From contig NZ_JACCBB010000001.1 of assembly GCF_013409345.1 (NCBI RefSeq), positions 3,658,001-3,722,000 on the forward strand: 64,000 nucleotides of DNA. The letters run 5' to 3'. How positions within the stretch are numbered: position 1 is the first letter of the stretch; each line of letters opens with the position of its first letter. Under the pieces are notes generated by a model. It was given only the letters and a program-made list of their open reading frames with translations, was not told the origin of the DNA and made no database searches. The position numbers were made by a program, and so were the translations under genes. This DNA comes from Kineococcus aurantiacus. GTDB lineage: Bacteria; Actinomycetota; Actinomycetes; Actinomycetales; Kineococcaceae. Positions 7,075 to 25,408 of this stretch are shown here, piece by piece.

Positions 7075-7241
7075 TCGTGCGGCACCGGCGCCTGTCGGTC
7101 ATCGACCGTGACCGGTCGACGACGCTGCGTCGATAGTCCGGCGACGCGGGGGGAGGTTCCGCGTCCGTGTCGGACCCCGCGGCTAAGGTGCGCGCACGGG
7201 TCCTCCACACGGGGGGACCCCCGGTGCGGCGAAGGCGGTGG

Positions 7242-18202: not shown

Positions 18203-18220
18203 TAGGCTCCTGTTCCCGTG
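18203..18220 (+). promoter_or_regulatory. Probable -10 of ychF
   Basis: TAGGCT ends 9 bases before the GTG, so the transcript would have a leader of only a few bases. Confidence 0.4.
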
Positions 18221-19303
18221 GCTCTCACCATCGGCATCGTCGGACTGCCCAACGTCGGCAAGTCCACGCTCTTCAACGCCCTGACCAAGAACGACGTGCT
18301 CGCGGCGAACTACCCGTTCGCCACCATCGAGCCCAACGTCGGGGTCGTGGCGCTGCCCGACCCGCGGCTGGACAGGCTCGCGGAGGTCTTCTCCAGCGAG
18401 AAGACCGTGCCCGCGACGGTGTCCTTCGTCGACATCGCCGGGATCGTCAAGGGCGCCAGCGAGGGTGAGGGGCTGGGCAACAAGTTCCTCGCCAACATCC
18501 GCGAGGCCGACGCGATCTGCCAGGTGACGCGCGCGTTCGCCGACCCCGACGTCGTGCACGTCGCCAACCGGGTGGACCCGGCCGACGACATCGCCACGAT
18601 CCACACCGAGCTGGTGCTGGCCGACCTGCAGACCCTCGAGCGCGCCGTCCCGCGCCTGGAGAAGGAGGTCAAGGGCAAGAAGACCGACGCGGCCGTGCTC
18701 AAGGCCGCCGAGGCCGCGTCCAAGGTCCTGGACTCCGGCCGTCCCCTGTCGGCCGCGACGAAGGCCGACGACGTCGACGTGGCGCTCCTGAAGGAGCTGG
18801 GGCTGCTGACCACCAAGCCGTTCATCTACGTCTTCAACGTCGACGAGACCGTCCTGGGCGACGAGGCCCGCAAGCAGGAGCTGCGCGACCTGGTGGCCCC
18901 GGCCGAGGCCGTGTTCCTCGACGCCAAGCTGGAGTCCGAGCTCGTGGAGCTGTCCGCCGAGGAGGCCGCCGAGCTGCTGGAGTCGGTGGGGCAGAACGAG
19001 TCCGGCCTGGACCAGCTCGCCCGCGTCGGCTTCGCCACGCTGGGTCTGCAGACCTACCTGACGGCCGGCCCGAAGGAGTCGCGGGCCTGGACCATCCGCA
19101 AGGGGTGGACCGCCCCGCAGGCCGCGGGCGTCATCCACACCGACTTCCAGCGCGGGTTCATCAAGGCCGAGGTCGTCTCCTTCGACGACCTGGTCGCCGC
19201 GGGGTCGATGGCCGAGGCCAAGGCCGCCGGCAAGGTGCGCATCGAGGGCAAGGAGTACGTCATGGCGGACGGGGACGTCGTGGAGTTCCGCTTCAACGTC
19301 TGA
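18218..19303 (+). CDS. ychF: Redox-/ribosome-associated GTPase/ATPase YchF (EngD/Ola1)
   Basis: A universally conserved Obg-family P-loop protein, 361 residues, that binds ribosomes and hydrolyses ATP in preference to GTP. The G1 motif GLPNVGKST (residues 7-15), DIAGIVKGASEGEGLGNKFL (G3 region) and a C-terminal TGS domain ending in EFRFNV are all present. The last codons coincide with the left direct repeat of the integrated element downstream. The element therefore inserted precisely at the stop and left the protein intact, but it moved the gene's native downstream sequence 4.6 kb away. Confidence 0.95.
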   Translation: MALTIGIVGLPNVGKSTLFNALTKNDVLAANYPFATIEPNVGVVALPDPRLDRLAEVFSSEKTVPATVSFVDIAGIVKGASEGEGLGNKFLANIREADAICQVTRAFADPDVVHVANRVDPADDIATIHTELVLADLQTLERAVPRLEKEVKGKKTDAAVLKAAEAASKVLDSGRPLSAATKADDVDVALLKELGLLTTKPFIYVFNVDETVLGDEARKQELRDLVAPAEAVFLDAKLESELVELSAEEAAELLESVGQNESGLDQLARVGFATLGLQTYLTAGPKESRAWTIRKGWTAPQAAGVIHTDFQRGFIKAEVVSFDDLVAAGSMAEAKAAGKVRIEGKEYVMADGDVVEFRFNV

Positions 19304-19304
19304 C
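19285..19304 (+). repeat. attL: 20-bp direct repeat at the ychF stop
   Basis: GTTCCGCTTCAACGTCTGAC encodes the last residues of YchF (FRFNV plus stop). It is identical to the copy at 23890-23909. Confidence 0.9.
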
Positions 19305-19343
19305 TGAGGGCCTCCGTGGGCTTCTGACCTGCAGCGATGCTTG

Positions 19344-20441
19344 TCAGGCGCTCGCGGAGGCCGTCCCCAGGCCGTCGAGCACCTCAGACCAGGCGTCGTC
19401 GACCGCTTTCCGGGTCCTTGCTTCGCTGTTGGGCATGAGGTGACCGTAGGTCGTCATGACCAGGGTCGCGTTCTCGTGCCCCAAGCGTTCCGCGACGGCG
19501 ACCAGGCTCTCTCCGCGCTCGATGAGCACGGAGGCGTAGTGGTGGCGGAGGTCGTGGGACGTCGTCCCCTTCGGCAGCCCCGCCTTGTGGACGGCCTTCT
19601 TGAAGATCGTCGTTCCGTAGTAATCCCGGCGGTAGAACTGACCGAACCGCGTGTGGAACAGCGTGCCGTCCTCCGCGGGAGGAAAGGTGGCGATGTGCCG
19701 GCTCAGCGCTTCCGCGACCACACGGGGGAGCGGGATCGTTCGGTGCGACGTCGGGGTCTTCACGTCCACCAGCGATCGCGTCTCGTCGTCCGTCTGCCAG
19801 TCGATGCGTACGGTCTGGTGGAGGAAGTCGACGTCCTCGAGGCGCAGGGCCAGCAGTTCCCCGATCCGGAGACCAAGACCCGCCTGCACCAGCACCATGG
19901 CCTCGTTGCGGGGCGGCATGGCGCTGGCGAGACCGACCACCTGCTGCACGGTCAAGGGCACGACCCGTTCAGGACGGGACGCGGGCAGAGTCAGCTTGAT
20001 CGCAGGCGACGTCCCGATGAGCCGGTCCTGCGCCGCTGCGGTGAACACGCTGCGGATGAGGCTGACGAGGTTGTCCAAGGTGGACGGGGCGAGCCTGGCG
20101 GCCCGGTCGCTGACCCACGCCTGCACGTCGGAGGGTAGGACGGAGGCCAGCCGGCGTTCCCCGAGGGCCGTTCCGGCGATGTGGTTGTTGATGTTGCTCG
20201 CCGTCCGTCGTGCGCTGGTCGGACGGTGAGGTCTGCCTTCCGCCCACTGCCGCGCGTACTCCAGCACCGTGGTCTTGTCGTGCGGATCGACGTACTGTCC
20301 GCGGAGCTGGTCGGCGTCGACCGTCGCGAGGAACTTGACCGCGTCCGTCTTCCGCTCGAAGGTCTTGGACCGTTCCCGTCCACCCGGCTCGTTCCAGCGC
20401 GCGCGGTAGCGCCCGGGTCCGCGCTTCTCGATGTGCGACAT
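19344..20441 (-). CDS. int: Tyrosine-type site-specific integrase
   Basis: A 365-residue phage-type integrase. The N-terminus has an AP2-like/SAM-like arm-binding and core-binding part (RYRARWNEPGGRERSKTFERK, then EYARQWAEG). The catalytic domain has Arg in AGLGLRIGELLALR (about residue 190), HDLRHHYASVL (His and second Arg), GHENATLVMTTYGHL and the nucleophile Tyr in TTYGHL. The ATG overlaps the stop of the XRE regulator gene (ATGA), which fixes the start. Its 3' end faces the left attachment site 40 bases away, the usual position for an integrase gene. Confidence 0.95.
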   Translation of the reverse strand: MSHIEKRGPGRYRARWNEPGGRERSKTFERKTDAVKFLATVDADQLRGQYVDPHDKTTVLEYARQWAEGRPHRPTSARRTASNINNHIAGTALGERRLASVLPSDVQAWVSDRAARLAPSTLDNLVSLIRSVFTAAAQDRLIGTSPAIKLTLPASRPERVVPLTVQQVVGLASAMPPRNEAMVLVQAGLGLRIGELLALRLEDVDFLHQTVRIDWQTDDETRSLVDVKTPTSHRTIPLPRVVAEALSRHIATFPPAEDGTLFHTRFGQFYRRDYYGTTIFKKAVHKAGLPKGTTSHDLRHHYASVLIERGESLVAVAERLGHENATLVMTTYGHLMPNSEARTRKAVDDAWSEVLDGLGTASASA

Positions 20442-21076
20442 CAGCTCTCCCTCTCGGTCAGGCGTACGAGTTCCTCCTGGAGTCCCGCCAGGGCGCGGTG
20501 AGCCGCCTTGAGGCGGTTCTTCACGGACGTGCTCTCCATGCGGATGACGAGGTGGTCCGGCAGCACCGTGTTCTTCCACAGCACACGGGTGAGGGAGAGG
20601 ATCTGCTCCTGCAGCGAGGTGAACCACTGCATCAGCGGTTCGCGGTCCAGTGCCCGCCACCACACGGGACGCTCGGCGTCGAAGTCGAGCCGGGACCGGA
20701 CGATCTCCGTCTCGCCCCGCGCCTCGGCAGGAGTCCGCAGCGGTTCCACGCCCGTGGCCCACTGCCAGGCGGACCACGCCCAGACCTCGCACGCCGGGGT
20801 GACGGCGAACAGCTCGGACTCGTCGTCGGCGTCGGGCACCATCAGCCGCGCCGGGGACACGTTGAGCGCGACGGCGAAGGCGGCGAAGTCGTCGACGTCC
20901 ACGCGACGGTCGCCGTTCTCCACCTTGGCGATGGCCGACGCGGCGAGGGGGCGTCCCAGCTCGGCCAGGCGGCCGGCGAGCTGCTGCTGCGACCATCCCC
21001 GGCGCTCGCGGACGGCTCGAATGTTCGTCGCGACCGTCGTGGCGACGGCCCCTTTCTCCACTGGCCTTGTACCCAT
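20441..21076 (-). CDS. XRE-family transcriptional regulator of the element
   Basis: About 211 residues with an N-terminal helix-turn-helix (NIRAVRERRGWSQQQLAGRL...SAIAKVENGDRRV, residues about 12-60). A longer C-terminal region has Trp-rich and helical segments of unknown role. It is co-transcribed with int and divergent from the excisionase-like gene, so it probably acts as the maintenance repressor. I choose the ATG at 21076 because it lies in a perfect CATGTT/AACATG repeat just downstream of -35/-10-like boxes (leaderless). The frame is open for 25 more codons to another ATG. Confidence 0.8.
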   Translation of the reverse strand: MGTRPVEKGAVATTVATNIRAVRERRGWSQQQLAGRLAELGRPLAASAIAKVENGDRRVDVDDFAAFAVALNVSPARLMVPDADDESELFAVTPACEVWAWSAWQWATGVEPLRTPAEARGETEIVRSRLDFDAERPVWWRALDREPLMQWFTSLQEQILSLTRVLWKNTVLPDHLVIRMESTSVKNRLKAAHRALAGLQEELVRLTERES

Positions 21077-21112
21077 GTTGGAAACATGCCATTCCTTCTT
21101 GACATGAGTCAA
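21074..21112. promoter_or_regulatory. Divergent control region with two palindromes
   Basis: A perfect inverted repeat CATGTT-N3-AACATG (21074-21088) overlaps the regulator's start codon. TTGACATGAGTCAA (21099-21112) is a near-palindrome that gives a TTGAC -35 box on both strands. A repressor bound here could shut off both int/regulator and xis/rep transcription. Confidence 0.5.
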
Positions 21113-21168
21113 CACCTGCGATCGACTGTGGTCATCTTCGGAGCACCGCACACCAACTTGGAGATTCC

Positions 21169-21360
21169 GTGGCTGACGACGTCCTCATGAGCCCGCAGCA
21201 GGTGGCCAGCTACCTGCAGATCCCCGTGACCACGCTGTACCAGTGGCGCCACCGTGGCGACGGTCCGCCCGCCGCGCGGGTCGGTCGCTACCTGCGCTAC
21301 CGGGAGACCGACGTCCGCCGGTGGCTGGAGCAGCGGGTCCAGGCGTCGAACACCAGGTGA
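21169..21360 (+). CDS. Excisionase/AlpA-like helix-turn-helix protein
   Basis: A 63-residue MerR-type winged HTH protein with the excisionase-family pattern MSPQQVASYLQIPVTTLYQWRH...GRYLRYRETDVRRWLEQ. Small proteins of this kind direct integrase toward excision or activate element genes. GTG start with GGAG 6 bases upstream. Its stop overlaps the next gene's GTG (GTGA), so it forms one operon with the possible replication gene. The same pairing of xis and rep occurs in pSAM2-type elements and phage satellites. Confidence 0.85.
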   Translation: MADDVLMSPQQVASYLQIPVTTLYQWRHRGDGPPAARVGRYLRYRETDVRRWLEQRVQASNTR

Positions 21361-22415
21361 GCACGGACACCGCCGTCTACCGCGCCTCGTCCGCCAGTCC
21401 CACTGACAGAAGGCAGCTCTCCCCAGCATCCGGGGTAGCGCTCGACACGGTCACGGTCGTCGGAGCGACCACCACCAAGTTGGTCAGGGAGCTGGAGAAC
21501 CACGGCCGGTCCCGGCTCGGGCACGAGTGGGGCAGCGAGTACGTGCTGATCGGTGACGGCCGTGCGCACCTCTCAGCGACGACCAGGGGCGAGACCCCCA
21601 CCGTCCGGTTGGAGTGGTCCGTCGCGGAGATGCTCGACGGGCACAACATCTACCCGATGGAGGCCGCGCTCCTCCCCGATGCCGTCGACGCAGCTCTGAC
21701 CGACCTCGGTCGGCGGTTCCCGGACGTCCCGGTCATCGACGACGTCGAGCTGTACCGGATCGACATCTCCAAGAACTACGTCGTGGAGTCCACGTCGACC
21801 ACCATGGCCAACATCGCCCGCGTCCCCCTCGTGTTCGCCAAGTACGACAGCCGCCACTACCGCGACGGATGCCTGCAGTCCATGAGCAGGGGCAGCAAGA
21901 CCCAGTGGATCGCCCGCACGTACAACAAGGGCGTGCAGATGCGTGAGAAGGCGGCGATCACCCAGGACAAGACGCAGGCCGCCGTCCTGTTGGCGCTCGC
22001 GGACGTCATGGACGAGGTCCTGCGCGTGGAGCTGCAGGCGCGGCGCGGTGTCTTGCTGCGACGCCGCATCCAACGGATCATGGATGCGACACCGCAGGCG
22101 CTGGACGCGCTGGCGCGAGAGCTGTTCACCAACGGCAGGCTGGACGTCACGACGGGGGGCAAGCTCGTGCTCGCGCAGAGGCTGCTGGAAATCGGCCCGG
22201 AGCTGACGGACGCGCAGATGCGAGCCGTGCAGCTCTACCTCTTCCACCGCACGACCGGGACCCCGTTCCCCGGCTGCCGGCACAGCTACGAGGACGGGCG
22301 TCGCTTCGCGAACAAGTACAACCTGCTCGCCCTGTCCATGATCGAGGACATCGAGCCTCACCGACTCGTCTGGGACGATGGGGTCGAGCTGGTCGGGAGT
22401 GCCGCACTCGCCTGA
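21357..22415 (+). CDS. Putative replication initiator of the element
   Basis: A 352-residue protein I cannot place firmly. Features that recall phage/plasmid II/X-type rolling-circle initiators are an acidic strand (VELYRIDISKNYV, about residue 140) and SRGSKTQWIARTYNKGVQM, followed by RVELQARRGVLLRRR. A C-terminal segment starts ELTDAQMRAVQLYLFHRTTG. A clear HUH motif is not evident, so the activity is an inference. Its position straight after xis, in an element with an integrase, supports a replication role. It overlaps the excisionase-like gene by 4 bases. Confidence 0.5.
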   Translation: MSTDTAVYRASSASPTDRRQLSPASGVALDTVTVVGATTTKLVRELENHGRSRLGHEWGSEYVLIGDGRAHLSATTRGETPTVRLEWSVAEMLDGHNIYPMEAALLPDAVDAALTDLGRRFPDVPVIDDVELYRIDISKNYVVESTSTTMANIARVPLVFAKYDSRHYRDGCLQSMSRGSKTQWIARTYNKGVQMREKAAITQDKTQAAVLLALADVMDEVLRVELQARRGVLLRRRIQRIMDATPQALDALARELFTNGRLDVTTGGKLVLAQRLLEIGPELTDAQMRAVQLYLFHRTTGTPFPGCRHSYEDGRRFANKYNLLALSMIEDIEPHRLVWDDGVELVGSAALA

Positions 22416-22595
22416 CCCCCCCGTTTACCGGGGTGCCGCTCCTGGTCGGAGGGGGCTCCTACGGCTGGTGCTCTCTCGCGATGCCGCCGCTCGAAAAAAG
22501 TGCCGCGTTAACGCCCGTTGCCGCGGTACGCGGCATCTCGGGCCTTCGTCCGGTTGGTGCTGCCGCCCCGCAGCACGACAGGTCAGGATGGCGGG
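22416..22595. other. Inverted-repeat-rich gap inside the element
   Basis: A short non-coding stretch with CCCCG-TTTAC-CGGGG just after the rep-like stop, an AAAAAA run with CGCGTTAACGC, and TGCCGCG-GTA-CGCGGCA at 22519-22535. It could hold a terminator for xis-rep, the promoter of the next gene, or an origin. The sequence does not decide between these. Confidence 0.35.
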
Positions 22596-23747
22596 GTGTG
22601 GGACACGTGGCAGGAGGAGATGGAGCACTGGAGTCAGCAGCGGTGGGGGCAATGGTTCGACGAGCACGAGCAGCAGAGGGTGGCGGAGCGGGAGCGGTCA
22701 CGACGCGAGGCTGTCGAGCGGAGGTTGCGGATCGAGCAGCGGTGGACGCCGTCGGGCGATCCGGAGCGCGACGCCCAACAGCGCTCGGAGCTGTATCACC
22801 AGGACCGGCTGGAACACCCCCACAGCATTCGGCGTGAGTGGGAGGAGCAGCAGGCGCTGCGCCGGCAAGAGGTGCTCACCTACCCCACGCTTCCTCTGCG
22901 CCACCACACCGACCTGCAACGCCCCGAGGGCGTCCCCGAGCAGCAGGACCCTCGGACGGTCGGCTTCGGCCCCAGCGGAGAGGCCCTAGCCCTGTGGGGG
23001 GAGACCAGCGAAAGGGCAACGCACCTCAGCCGGTACGACTGCGACGGTCAGCTCAGCGCGAGCATGCCGTTGGAGACGGTGCCCTGGGCCTTCCACGTGC
23101 AGCCGCTGCCGCACGGGCAGGTGCTGGTCGTCGAAGCCGGTGGTCCCCGCGCCGCTGTCCACGACGGGGTGGGCCGTCTGGTGCGGACCATCGATGTCGG
23201 TCGCGGCGTGACCCGCGTGCTCAGCACCGTCGAGGGCCAGGTGTGGATCGGCTACGACAAGGAGTCCCCGCGCGATCACTACTTCAGCCAACACGGCTTG
23301 GTCCGCTTCGGCGCCGACCTGACTCCCCACTGGCGCTATCCCCTGAGCACTGCGCTGCCGGACATCTACGACTGCCTCGTCCTCAATGTCGACGGCGAGG
23401 CGGCGTGGACGTACAGCTGGACCTCCTTCCACCTCGTTGGTGTCCACGCTGGGCAGGCTCAGGATCATGGCCGTGTCCCGGTCGACCACGCCCGTGCGGT
23501 GCTCGTTGCCGATGACCAGGCTGCGACGATCAGCGGCTACGGCGGTGAGGACGACGTCCTCACCCCGCTCCGGCTCGCCACGGATTCCATCTGGTTGGCG
23601 GGGTCACCGGCGCGGCTGGTGCTGCCAGGTGGCGCGGACCTGCCCCGGGCGCGGTACACCAGCCGCGGCCCCGACCTGCACGCCGTGATCGGCACTGCTT
23701 GGTACCGCCTGAGCCTGGATGACGTCGGGAGCAGGTGGGTGATCTGA
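22596..23747 (+). CDS. Unknown cargo protein with charged N-terminus and beta-rich, propeller-like body
   Basis: A 383-residue protein I do not recognise. Residues 1-110 are helical and strongly charged (repeated E, Q and R, for example ERERSRREAVERR), compatible with a coiled coil. The rest consists of repeated strands with a W-x-G/GQVWIGYD, VPWAFHVQPLP and DSIWLAG character that suggests a beta-propeller. It has no signal peptide and no catalytic motif that I can name. GTG start with AGGATGGCGG upstream. As the only gene of the element without a mobility role, it is the likely cargo (defence, host interference or fitness function unknown). Confidence 0.6.
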   Translation: MWDTWQEEMEHWSQQRWGQWFDEHEQQRVAERERSRREAVERRLRIEQRWTPSGDPERDAQQRSELYHQDRLEHPHSIRREWEEQQALRRQEVLTYPTLPLRHHTDLQRPEGVPEQQDPRTVGFGPSGEALALWGETSERATHLSRYDCDGQLSASMPLETVPWAFHVQPLPHGQVLVVEAGGPRAAVHDGVGRLVRTIDVGRGVTRVLSTVEGQVWIGYDKESPRDHYFSQHGLVRFGADLTPHWRYPLSTALPDIYDCLVLNVDGEAAWTYSWTSFHLVGVHAGQAQDHGRVPVDHARAVLVADDQAATISGYGGEDDVLTPLRLATDSIWLAGSPARLVLPGGADLPRARYTSRGPDLHAVIGTAWYRLSLDDVGSRWVI

Positions 23748-23750
23748 CGA

Positions 23751-23783
23751 CGCCAGGCCGTCGCCAGGCCGTCGCCAGGCCGT
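23751..23783 (+). repeat. Three tandem 11-bp repeats near the right end of the element
   Basis: CGCCAGGCCGT occurs three times head to tail directly after the cargo gene. The same CCAGGCCGTCG core occurs once near the left end at 19367-19377. These may be integrase arm-binding sites. Confidence 0.55.
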
Positions 23784-23889
23784 GAGACGCACCTAAGCCG
23801 TGGCAGACGTCGACAAGCGCTGCGCAACGTTCTTGCAGGTCAGGCGGTAGGTCAGAGGATCACCGCAGGTGAGGCCGGCCGAGCCCCGT

Positions 23890-23909
23890 GTTCCGCTTCA
23901 ACGTCTGAC
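23890..23909 (+). repeat. attR: 20-bp direct repeat
   Basis: A second copy of the ychF terminal sequence (FRFNV-stop codons). It is followed by CGGGGTCCCCG, which probably was the native sequence after ychF before integration. Confidence 0.9.
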
Positions 23910-24004: not shown

Positions 24005-25408
24005 GTGGCAGTGGGGAGCGTGACCAGTGGCGGCGCAGGGCGGCCGTGCAGCCACCGGCTGACGCTGGAACCCGACCCGGGTGCGGCCCGCCGGGCCCGC
24101 CGCTTCGTCCGGGAGTCCCTGGCCGCGGCCGGGCGGCCGGAGTGGGTCGACGCCGGGGAGCTGGCGGTCAGCGAGCTGGTGACCAACGCGGCCCTGCACG
24201 CCCGCACGACCGTCGAGGTCGGCGTCGAGGTGCACCCCGACCACGCGCGGGTCGAGGTCCGCGACTTCAACCTCACCCAGCCGTCGCAGCGCCACTACGG
24301 GCAGCAGGCCACCACCGGGCGCGGCATGGCGCTGGTGGCCTCGGTGAGCAGCGGGTGCGGCACCACCAGCCTGCCCGACGGCAAGGTGGTCTGGTTCGAA
24401 CTGCGCACCCCGGACCACGAGCCGTCCGAGGAGGACCTGCTCGCGGCCTGGGACGAGGAGCAGTGGGACGTCGCCGACGGGTTCACGGCCCGCGCCGCCG
24501 ACGGGGACCGGCCCGAACCCGACGCGTCGCCGCGGCGGGTCCAGCTGGTGGGGATCCCGCCCACGCTGTGGCTGGCCGCCCGCGAGCACCACGACGCGCT
24601 GCTGCGGGAGCTGACGCTCTACCTGGCCACCCACGCCGAACCCGTCGTCGACCTGGCCGCGGTGGAGGGGGCCCGCCAGTCCTTCTCCAACGCGGTGCTC
24701 GCCGCCGCCGAGCAGGCCCGGCGCACCGCGCCGGACCCCGTGCGGCTCAGCGGGCTGCCCGTCGCGCTGGAGGCCGTCGACCTGGACCTGCAGCTGCCGC
24801 CGTGGACGGGCCCGGCCGCCGCGGCCCTGCAGGACGCCCTGGACGCCGCCGAGGAGCTGGCCCGGCAGGGGCTGCTGCTGGCCCTGCCCGGCCAGGCCGA
24901 GGTCGTCGCCGTGCGGGACTGGGTGTGCGAGCAGGTGCAGAGCCAGTTGCAGGGCGCTCCCGCCCGCGCCTGGCAGGGGGCCCGGCACGAGCGGTTCGAG
25001 ATCCCCGGGCACGAGCTGGCCCCGGAGGCCGCCGCGGCACTGGAGGAGGCCCTCACCGCCGTGCGCGAGGCCGCCGTGCGCAGCGGCCGGGGGTTCGTCG
25101 CCATCGACGCCGGCAGCCGCGTCCTGGCCGTCGACGACGCCCTGGCCGCCGCACTGGGCTGGGAGGTGGCCGAACTCGTGGGGCGCCGCGTGGTGGCGAT
25201 CATCCCCCCGGCCCTGCGCGAGGCCCACGTCGCCGGGTTCAGCCGGCACCTGGGCACGGGGGAGTCCCGCGTCCTGGGCGCACCGCTGGTGCTCCCGGTC
25301 CTGCACGCCGACGGCCGCGAGATCCCCTGCGGGTTCCTCATCGAGCGCCGGCCGACGGCCGCGGGGCACTGGCTCTACCTGGCCTGGATCGAGCCCGTCG
25401 GCGCCTGA
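24005..25408 (+). CDS. Histidine-kinase-like ATPase (RsbW type) fused to a C-terminal PAS domain
   Basis: A 467-residue cytoplasmic regulator. Residues about 15-140 form an RsbW/SpoIIAB-like ATPase: N-box ELAVSELVTNAALHA, a G1-like VEVRDFN and the G2 loop TGRGMALVASVS. A helical middle region (about 170-345) has no match I know. Residues about 350-460 form a PAS-like sensor (RGFVAIDAGSRVLAVDDALAAALGWEVAELVGRRV). Such ATPases bind and inhibit sigma factors or anti-anti-sigma proteins. The ATPase-first, PAS-last order is unusual. GTG start with GAAGGTGA upstream. It precedes the manganese catalase gene after a terminator, suggesting a stress role but not a shared transcript. Confidence 0.75.
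   Translation: MAVGSVTSGGAGRPCSHRLTLEPDPGAARRARRFVRESLAAAGRPEWVDAGELAVSELVTNAALHARTTVEVGVEVHPDHARVEVRDFNLTQPSQRHYGQQATTGRGMALVASVSSGCGTTSLPDGKVVWFELRTPDHEPSEEDLLAAWDEEQWDVADGFTARAADGDRPEPDASPRRVQLVGIPPTLWLAAREHHDALLRELTLYLATHAEPVVDLAAVEGARQSFSNAVLAAAEQARRTAPDPVRLSGLPVALEAVDLDLQLPPWTGPAAAALQDALDAAEELARQGLLLALPGQAEVVAVRDWVCEQVQSQLQGAPARAWQGARHERFEIPGHELAPEAAAALEEALTAVREAAVRSGRGFVAIDAGSRVLAVDDALAAALGWEVAELVGRRVVAIIPPALREAHVAGFSRHLGTGESRVLGAPLVLPVLHADGREIPCGFLIERRPTAAGHWLYLAWIEPVGA

Follow-up and report, generated by a model that had tools for sequence, protein, structure and literature searches.

What is the block of genes that follows ychF in Kineococcus aurantiacus? The question is raised by a stretch of 64,000 nucleotides from contig NZ_JACCBB010000001.1 (hereafter the window, to which all coordinates refer unless a locus is named), in which five genes lie between two copies of one 20-bp sequence, the first copy forming the end of ychF. 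This 4.6-kb block is very probably a non-conjugative integrative element inserted in the 3' end of ychF. An earlier, sequence-only reading had proposed an integrative element at this site, and its interpretation as a whole is partly supported by the analysis presented here.

The gene block at the 3' end of ychF

The host gene ychF (18218-19303, plus strand) matches the Pfam family YchF-GTPase_C from position 1 to 84 of 84. The exact repeat GTTCCGCTTCAACGTCTGAC is found on the plus strand at 19285-19304 (attL) and 23890-23909 (attR), the copies being 4605 bp apart. The overlap of the first copy with the last codons and TGA stop of ychF can be read directly, and the copies bracket an integrase gene, an XRE regulator, xis, a rep-like gene and one cargo gene, just as the sequence-only reading had it; the repeat-bracketed block at the ychF end is thus confirmed as an observation. 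The 5.03-Mb genome holds these two exact copies and one further place at 2 mismatches, and no third copy was found within the window at up to 5 mismatches, except for one place at 7156. By a hand estimate from base composition, about 0.001 chance pairs of 20-mers are expected in 5.8 kb. Direct core repeats, one of them completing the host gene, together with an integrase carrying the R-K-H-R-H-Y residues, characterize tyrosine-integrase islands, and all are present here. The block also differs in composition: its G+C content is 68.6%, whereas the remainder of the window has 74.2%, and the G+C content at third codon positions (GC3) is 0.86-0.92, compared with 0.97-0.98 in ychF and two genes of the right flank. 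Site-specific integration that leaves the YchF protein unchanged is well supported. The earlier description of that protein as essential is too strong for a general rule, as deletion of ychF in S. pneumoniae was reported to have no effect on growth (PMC6375853).

The five genes are arranged as int (-), xre (-), xis (+), rep (+) and cargo (+), with all frames open, overlaps between int and xre and between xis and rep, and about 90 bp separating the divergent pairs. The int gene (19344-20441) encodes a tyrosine integrase of 365 amino acids from ATG (PF00589, 1e-21) in which the catalytic residues R193, K229, H297, R300, H323 and Y333 (366-residue numbering) are all present. The overlapping xre gene (20441-21076) encodes an HTH_31/HTH_3 regulator; its ATG is at 21076, and upstream starts are possible. 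Two palindromes in the divergent start region (21074-21112), CATGTTGGAAACATG at 21074-21088 and TTGACATGAGTCAA at 21099-21112, were read by eye as candidate operators. The product of xis (21169-21360) is of the HTH_17 excisionase type (TIGR01764, 35.6 bits, cut-off 28.8) and matches an excisionase family in PHROGs at 8e-13. The rep gene (21357-22415) encodes a putative replication initiator like G2P/Phage_CRI (PF05144, 22.9 bits, cut-off 21.7; phrog_702 'replication protein', 1.3e-5). The cargo gene (22596-23747, scanned as 22584-23747, four residues more) belongs to no family, its only Pfam match having an E value of 0.32; a structure model of low confidence (mean predicted local distance difference test score, pLDDT, 51.6) suggests a helical N-terminus and a strand-rich C-terminus. 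The sequence-only reading held that transfer genes are lacking, and indeed the Pfam scan of the five genes gave no match to FtsK/SpoIIIE/TraB or to relaxase families. Neither Pfam nor PHROGs identified any gene for TerS, primase, capsid size or packaging interference in the element, nor any structural or assembly gene of inovirus or prophage type. No tRNA genes were found in the window.

In all ten congeners examined ychF is 87-95% identical, and its 18-bp end TTCCGSTTCAACGTSTGA is matched exactly once per genome when one C/G difference is allowed. This stretch reads TTCCGC, with the same 18 bases, in seven congeners and TTCCGG in three, and the full 20 bases are found in two. On the other side, the sequence after ychF aligns with the window from about 26612 onward in three congeners, and the next gene after ychF is that at about 27.1 kb of the window in nine of the ten; in the remaining one (G005) ychF is followed by another block, about 8 kb long. 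It follows that a further 2.7 kb or so (23910 to about 26611), outside the repeats, is also extra at this locus. The search of related genomes for an empty site, suggested by the sequence-only reading, has been answered in half: every congener has the single ychF end, but the right flank differs, and of an empty site no more than the left half can be recognized in them. The extra stretch holds two genes, one for a HATPase/PAS protein and one for a ferritin-like protein (the latter by eye), at 24005 and 25527. Their native GC3 argues against membership in the 4.6-kb element.

Integrase relatives and their attachment sites

Four integrases used as queries returned 313 relatives, and the best 80 of these were analysed; one of them (L114, Kineococcus siccus) repeats a congener already examined, having the same integrase as G007. 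In 14 of the 80 the integrase gene adjoins the 3' end of ychF, convergent as in the window. The two stop codons are 21-109 bp apart in 13 of these; in L091 the frame runs on and the match ends 52 bp away. The hosts are Blastococcus, Catellatospora, Geodermatophilus, Microbispora, Micromonospora, Streptosporangium, Streptomyces (six), and two metagenome-assembled genomes, one of Thermoleophilia (a 3.3-kb contig) and one of Frankiales. Three more loci (L099, L102 and L144) have the core without ychF. The other 63 relatives lie at sodN (19), rnpB (13), xthA (12), a tadA-like gene (2), and prs, gyrB and an smr-like gene (one each), and 14 have no assigned target. The targets of L099, L102, L144, L119 and the smr-like locus were labelled by eye; for xthA, sodN, glnA, gyrB, prs and yajQ, Pfam confirmed the gene in a single representative of each. 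In L118 the integrase beside yajQ is a second one, 33% identical. The tadA-like gene may be interrupted, since its below-cut-off match covers only part of T2SSE. The rnpB motif was recognized in 12 loci by script and in one by eye. No tRNA gene was found beside the integrase in the 45 loci scanned for them.

Some of these sites deserve separate mention. In the congener loci L041 (7500-7883) and L042 (8344-8729) the integrase gene adjoins the 3' end of rnpB, the RNase P RNA gene, as identified by Rfam. In a third congener locus (L043, 8120-8330) an integrase relative ends beside the stop codon of a full-length gene for glutamine synthetase, likely a further protein-gene site. A set of 19 Streptomyces integrases (L129-L150) lies at the end of the nickel superoxide dismutase gene, confirmed by Pfam in one.

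Both copies of the core are on one contig in six of the ychF loci, in elements of 10.9 kb (Blastococcus), 3.0 kb (Catellatospora), 3.25 kb (Microbispora), 17.7 kb (Streptosporangium), and 11.9 and 15.9 kb (Streptomyces); second copies were searched for with patterns of 14-16 bases. The length of the shared core ranges from 14 to 37 bp across these six and the window element, and the 14-bp TTCCGCTTCAACGT is common to all seven. The sequence-only reading had called for other elements with its 20-bp core: six are found that share at least these 14 bp, and the core as first described must be shortened accordingly, the 20 bp being exact within the window with no other exact copy in the genome. Between the two copies of one element, the base that follows the 14-bp core differs in L164, L165 and L167 and the stop codon differs in L163, L165 and L167, so that the element supplies its own ychF end. 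Three Streptomyces genomes with several core copies (ISL-43, ISL-100 and NTH33) were not counted, as their copies were not shown to be on one contig with int and ychF. The gene content of loci in this group is varied: L163 encodes a tape-measure protein; L167, from Streptomyces, encodes a MobA-type relaxase (PF03432), and L165 has a below-cut-off relaxase match; a RepSA fragment (PF20199) lies beside the ychF-type integrase in L090 and, by eye, in L091; DUF3631 (RepAM domain) is found in L165 and L089, the latter with a major head protein and only one core copy found in that genome.

In the tree of the 80 integrases the window falls in a clade of 24 (SH-aLRT, the Shimodaira-Hasegawa-like approximate likelihood ratio test, 99) with seven others of ychF type, twelve of xthA type and four without an assigned target. 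A second clade of 12 (SH-aLRT 99) holds the ychF-type integrases of Streptomyces and Streptosporangium, one of gyrB type and two without an assigned target. Parsimony requires at least three changes of target, and both a double adoption of ychF and a single adoption with later switches fit. As a site, ychF had been presented as unusual. It is so beside the AICEs (actinomycete integrative and conjugative elements): apart from the pSLS sub-family, the vast majority of their tyrosine integrases are found in tRNA ends (PMC3218068). Within this integrase family it is not, as two clades use ychF and others use further gene ends. The claim of a wide host range holds in part: the site is used in hosts of several families, but the exact 18-bp core is present in only 30 of 296 genomes of the phylum, indicating that the DNA site is not universal, and it has no match in the one other genome of the family.

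In IMG/VR, searches with Rep, the cargo protein and the integrase gave no relative. Contigs there that contain the core number 17; six have an integrase relative, which in five (L056, L062, L066, L067 and L071) points toward the core, opposite to the window. These integrases are read as an independent use of the ychF site. In L056 and L067 the core is followed by genes that look RelBE-like by eye. Four contigs (L055, L059, L063 and L069) have 22-55 residues of the end of YchF at the core, the pattern that would mark the edge of a prophage in this gene; the stretch examined of each gave no integrase relative. In viral contig L057 (1947-2172) a C-terminal integrase fragment lies beside a ychF-type core in the window's orientation and may be a remnant of tandem insertion.

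Repeats that may serve as arm-type sites of the integrase are found at both ends of the element. On the left, the motif GCAGGTCAG lies beside attL (19324-19332, minus strand), and AGGCCGTC-type direct repeats in the int 3' end (19358-19377, plus strand) match those of the right end at 23755-23774 (95% over 20 nt). The right end holds three tandem CAGGCCGT units with 11-bp spacing (23754-23785, plus strand) and three motifs resembling GCAGGTCAG (23835-23873, plus strand), that at 23835 exact and those at 23847 and 23865 with one mismatch. The motif GCAGGTCAG, picked after looking, has an exact copy between positions -60 and +140 relative to the int stop in 35 of the 80 relatives, many of which are close kin, compared with 1.2% of 4222 control windows. 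Across the window its enrichment at up to one mismatch is modest, with 40 found, 25.7 expected and 1 of 100 shuffles as high.

The Rep family

Rep is the hallmark of a rare family of small elements. Relatives were found in 2 of 10 congeners, 2 of 295 other genomes of the class and, at 1e-6, 2 of 395 other genomes of the phylum (the samples overlap), and in none of the IMG/VR, phage and plasmid collections; an initial scan of genome contigs also gave none. A relative stands with an integrase beside a tRNA gene in four loci. The elements at tRNA-Pro (10.36 kb, with 70-bp repeats at 99%) and tRNA-Lys (10.79 kb) are the larger ones; that at tRNA-Ser (5.66 kb) has a T5orf172 nuclease and no xis identified. 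These three elements, mapped at both ends, all hold int and rep, and two of them an HTH_17 gene. The locus at tRNA-Arg is ended by the contig edge and has xre, xis and an incomplete rep, ordered as in the window. No transfer genes were seen among the genes scanned, which are part of the gene content of these elements. The cargo varies: the tRNA-Pro element (L039, 953-11377) carries the type I restriction genes HsdM and HsdR, and the tRNA-Lys element (L171, 8487-19302) carries the arsenic-type genes ArsR, LMWPc, SBF, a flavoprotein and MFS.

The integrases of the Rep family at tRNA genes are more distant from that of the window. Rep relatives beside tRNA genes and an int module of ychF type suggest that the window element combines that Rep chassis with a swapped integrase module. 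With the int module drawn from a clade that occupies ychF in prophage-like and RepSA-bearing elements, and Rep from elements at tRNA genes, module exchange is the most likely origin.

Proposed mechanism, rival readings and known systems

The genes suggest the following cycle. Int would recombine attP with attB inside the 14-bp TTCCGCTTCAACGT, which encodes F-R-F-N-V; the incoming copy would complete ychF and the old ychF end would be moved to the far side. Xre would repress the divergent xis-rep operon until induction, Xis would switch Int to excision, and Rep would initiate rolling-circle copying of the circle. As no transfer or packaging gene was found, movement to another cell would have to rely on a conjugative helper, a phage or DNA uptake. 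A broader proposal is tentative, and we give it somewhat less than even chances as a whole: that the element represents an undescribed actinobacterial family of minimal integrative elements of 4.6-10.8 kb (int, regulator, xis, an unusual Rep and variable cargo, with no transfer gene among the genes scanned) which live as integrated rolling-circle plasmids, swap integrase modules between tRNA genes and the ychF end and use Rep as a relaxase for co-resident conjugative elements, with ychF an island hot spot for two integrase clades and for oppositely oriented phages.

Several observations weigh against an integrative element of this kind. The 2.7 kb to its right are also absent from the ychF loci of the congeners, and no genome examined has an empty site that continues into this right flank. 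Among the 296 genomes of the phylum two cores are found in its own genome only, which implies that occupied ychF sites are uncommon at that sampling. The window integrase sits on a long branch (0.53), and its fork of 22 has a support of 87. The assignment of Rep is also fragile: Phage_CRI matches only two of five family members at E values up to 10, NCBIfam gives no match, a search with the Rep profile returned no solved structure, its comparison with the inovirus B5 Rep produced no alignment, the AlphaFold model has a pLDDT of 34 and is unusable, and the relatives in G204 and G200 have no integrase relative or tRNA gene in the short flanks examined. The matches hint, weakly, at a G2P/Phage_CRI rolling-circle initiator. 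Excision and circle formation, and likewise regulation, replication and transfer, are steps that we infer from the genes.

That the repeats are a coincidence in ordinary chromosome is extremely improbable: the right border is not checkable against the congeners, but the core is unique in the genome and coincides with the ychF stop, and the same integrase family occurs at ychF with the same core in other genera. Another reading is that Rep doubles as a relaxase and that a co-resident conjugative element carries the element over. Rolling-circle initiators can serve in mobilization (NicK/MobT type), and in Streptomyces an element with a relaxase gene also occupies the ychF site (L167, PF03432). 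We regard this as rather unlikely but worth keeping in view, given that there is no relaxase family match and no known origin of transfer, and that the region downstream of rep (22416-22590) has no unusual fold (z -0.28). The block might instead be a decayed, immobile integration module left over from a prophage or larger element, for some of its close integrase relatives are in prophage-like or reduced elements (tape measure in L072, major head protein in L089, RepSA fragment in L090) and its cargo has no family match. Decay is unlikely, however: the five genes are open, both cores exact, and the gene overlaps and end repeats kept, and int and rep are likewise both present in each of the three further mapped elements that carry this Rep, with an HTH_17 gene in two of them. 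Less probable still is a satellite excised and replicated on infection and packaged by a helper phage, as are phage-inducible chromosomal islands (PICIs). Small size, a phage-type integrase, divergent regulators, rep and related int modules in prophage-like elements would fit, but the packaging and primase genes sought are missing, xis matches a terminase-small-subunit family at chance level only (E 0.054), and the viral, phage and plasmid collections lack any Rep relative.

An integrative element in the ychF 3' end remains the preferred reading. It adds this gene end to the attachment sites used in Actinobacteria, with one 14-bp core common to prophage-like, relaxase-bearing, RepSA-bearing and G2P-Rep elements in several families. 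An integrase family at the ends of conserved protein genes and of RNA genes other than tRNA is useful for finding islands missed by tRNA-based searches and for choosing integration sites, and the element exemplifies a rare class of very small elements, for which transfer can be tested.

Judged by gene content, the window element falls outside both AICEs and PICIs. The likeness to pSAM2 and phage-inducible islands drawn in the sequence-only reading holds for layout, but no RepSA, FtsK/TraB or packaging gene accompanies it. Like AICEs of the pSAM2 type, it combines a tyrosine integrase, Xis and a putative rolling-circle Rep in a small site-specific element, and RepSA fragments occur beside related integrases (L090, and L091 by eye). 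Unlike them, it is without FtsK/TraB, its Rep matches neither RepSA, RepAM nor Prim-Pol but only Phage_CRI, and its attB is ychF rather than a tRNA gene, a usual though not strict AICE trait; an AICE in rlmN has been reported (PMC9513070). Ghinet et al. (2011) included Phage_CRI among further Rep families searched and reported a single additional element, which has Rep_2. Size, int and divergent regulators recall PICIs, but no gene for packaging interference, TerS or primase was found. Rep resembles the G2P N-terminal family of inoviruses, yet there is no coat, assembly or secretion gene, and the actinobacterial inovirus B5 has a Rep of the Rep_1 family without a profile match.

No report of the ychF 3' end as attB was found in the literature searched, which excluded supplementary island tables, and a database entry may exist; the main text of PMC12884075 does not mention ychF. 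A prophage and a satellite of S. pneumoniae occupy the same host gene neighbourhood (PMC6375853, PMC8637289, PMC10383233), but these papers describe insertion upstream of ychF at an unrelated site of 14-26 bp. The integrative and conjugative elements of streptococci (Ambroset et al. 2016, PMC4701971) are conjugative, belong to another phylum and are described in a main text from which ychF is absent; like the window element, they lie at the 3' end of a conserved protein gene (rplL, rpsI, lysS, rpmG or guaA).

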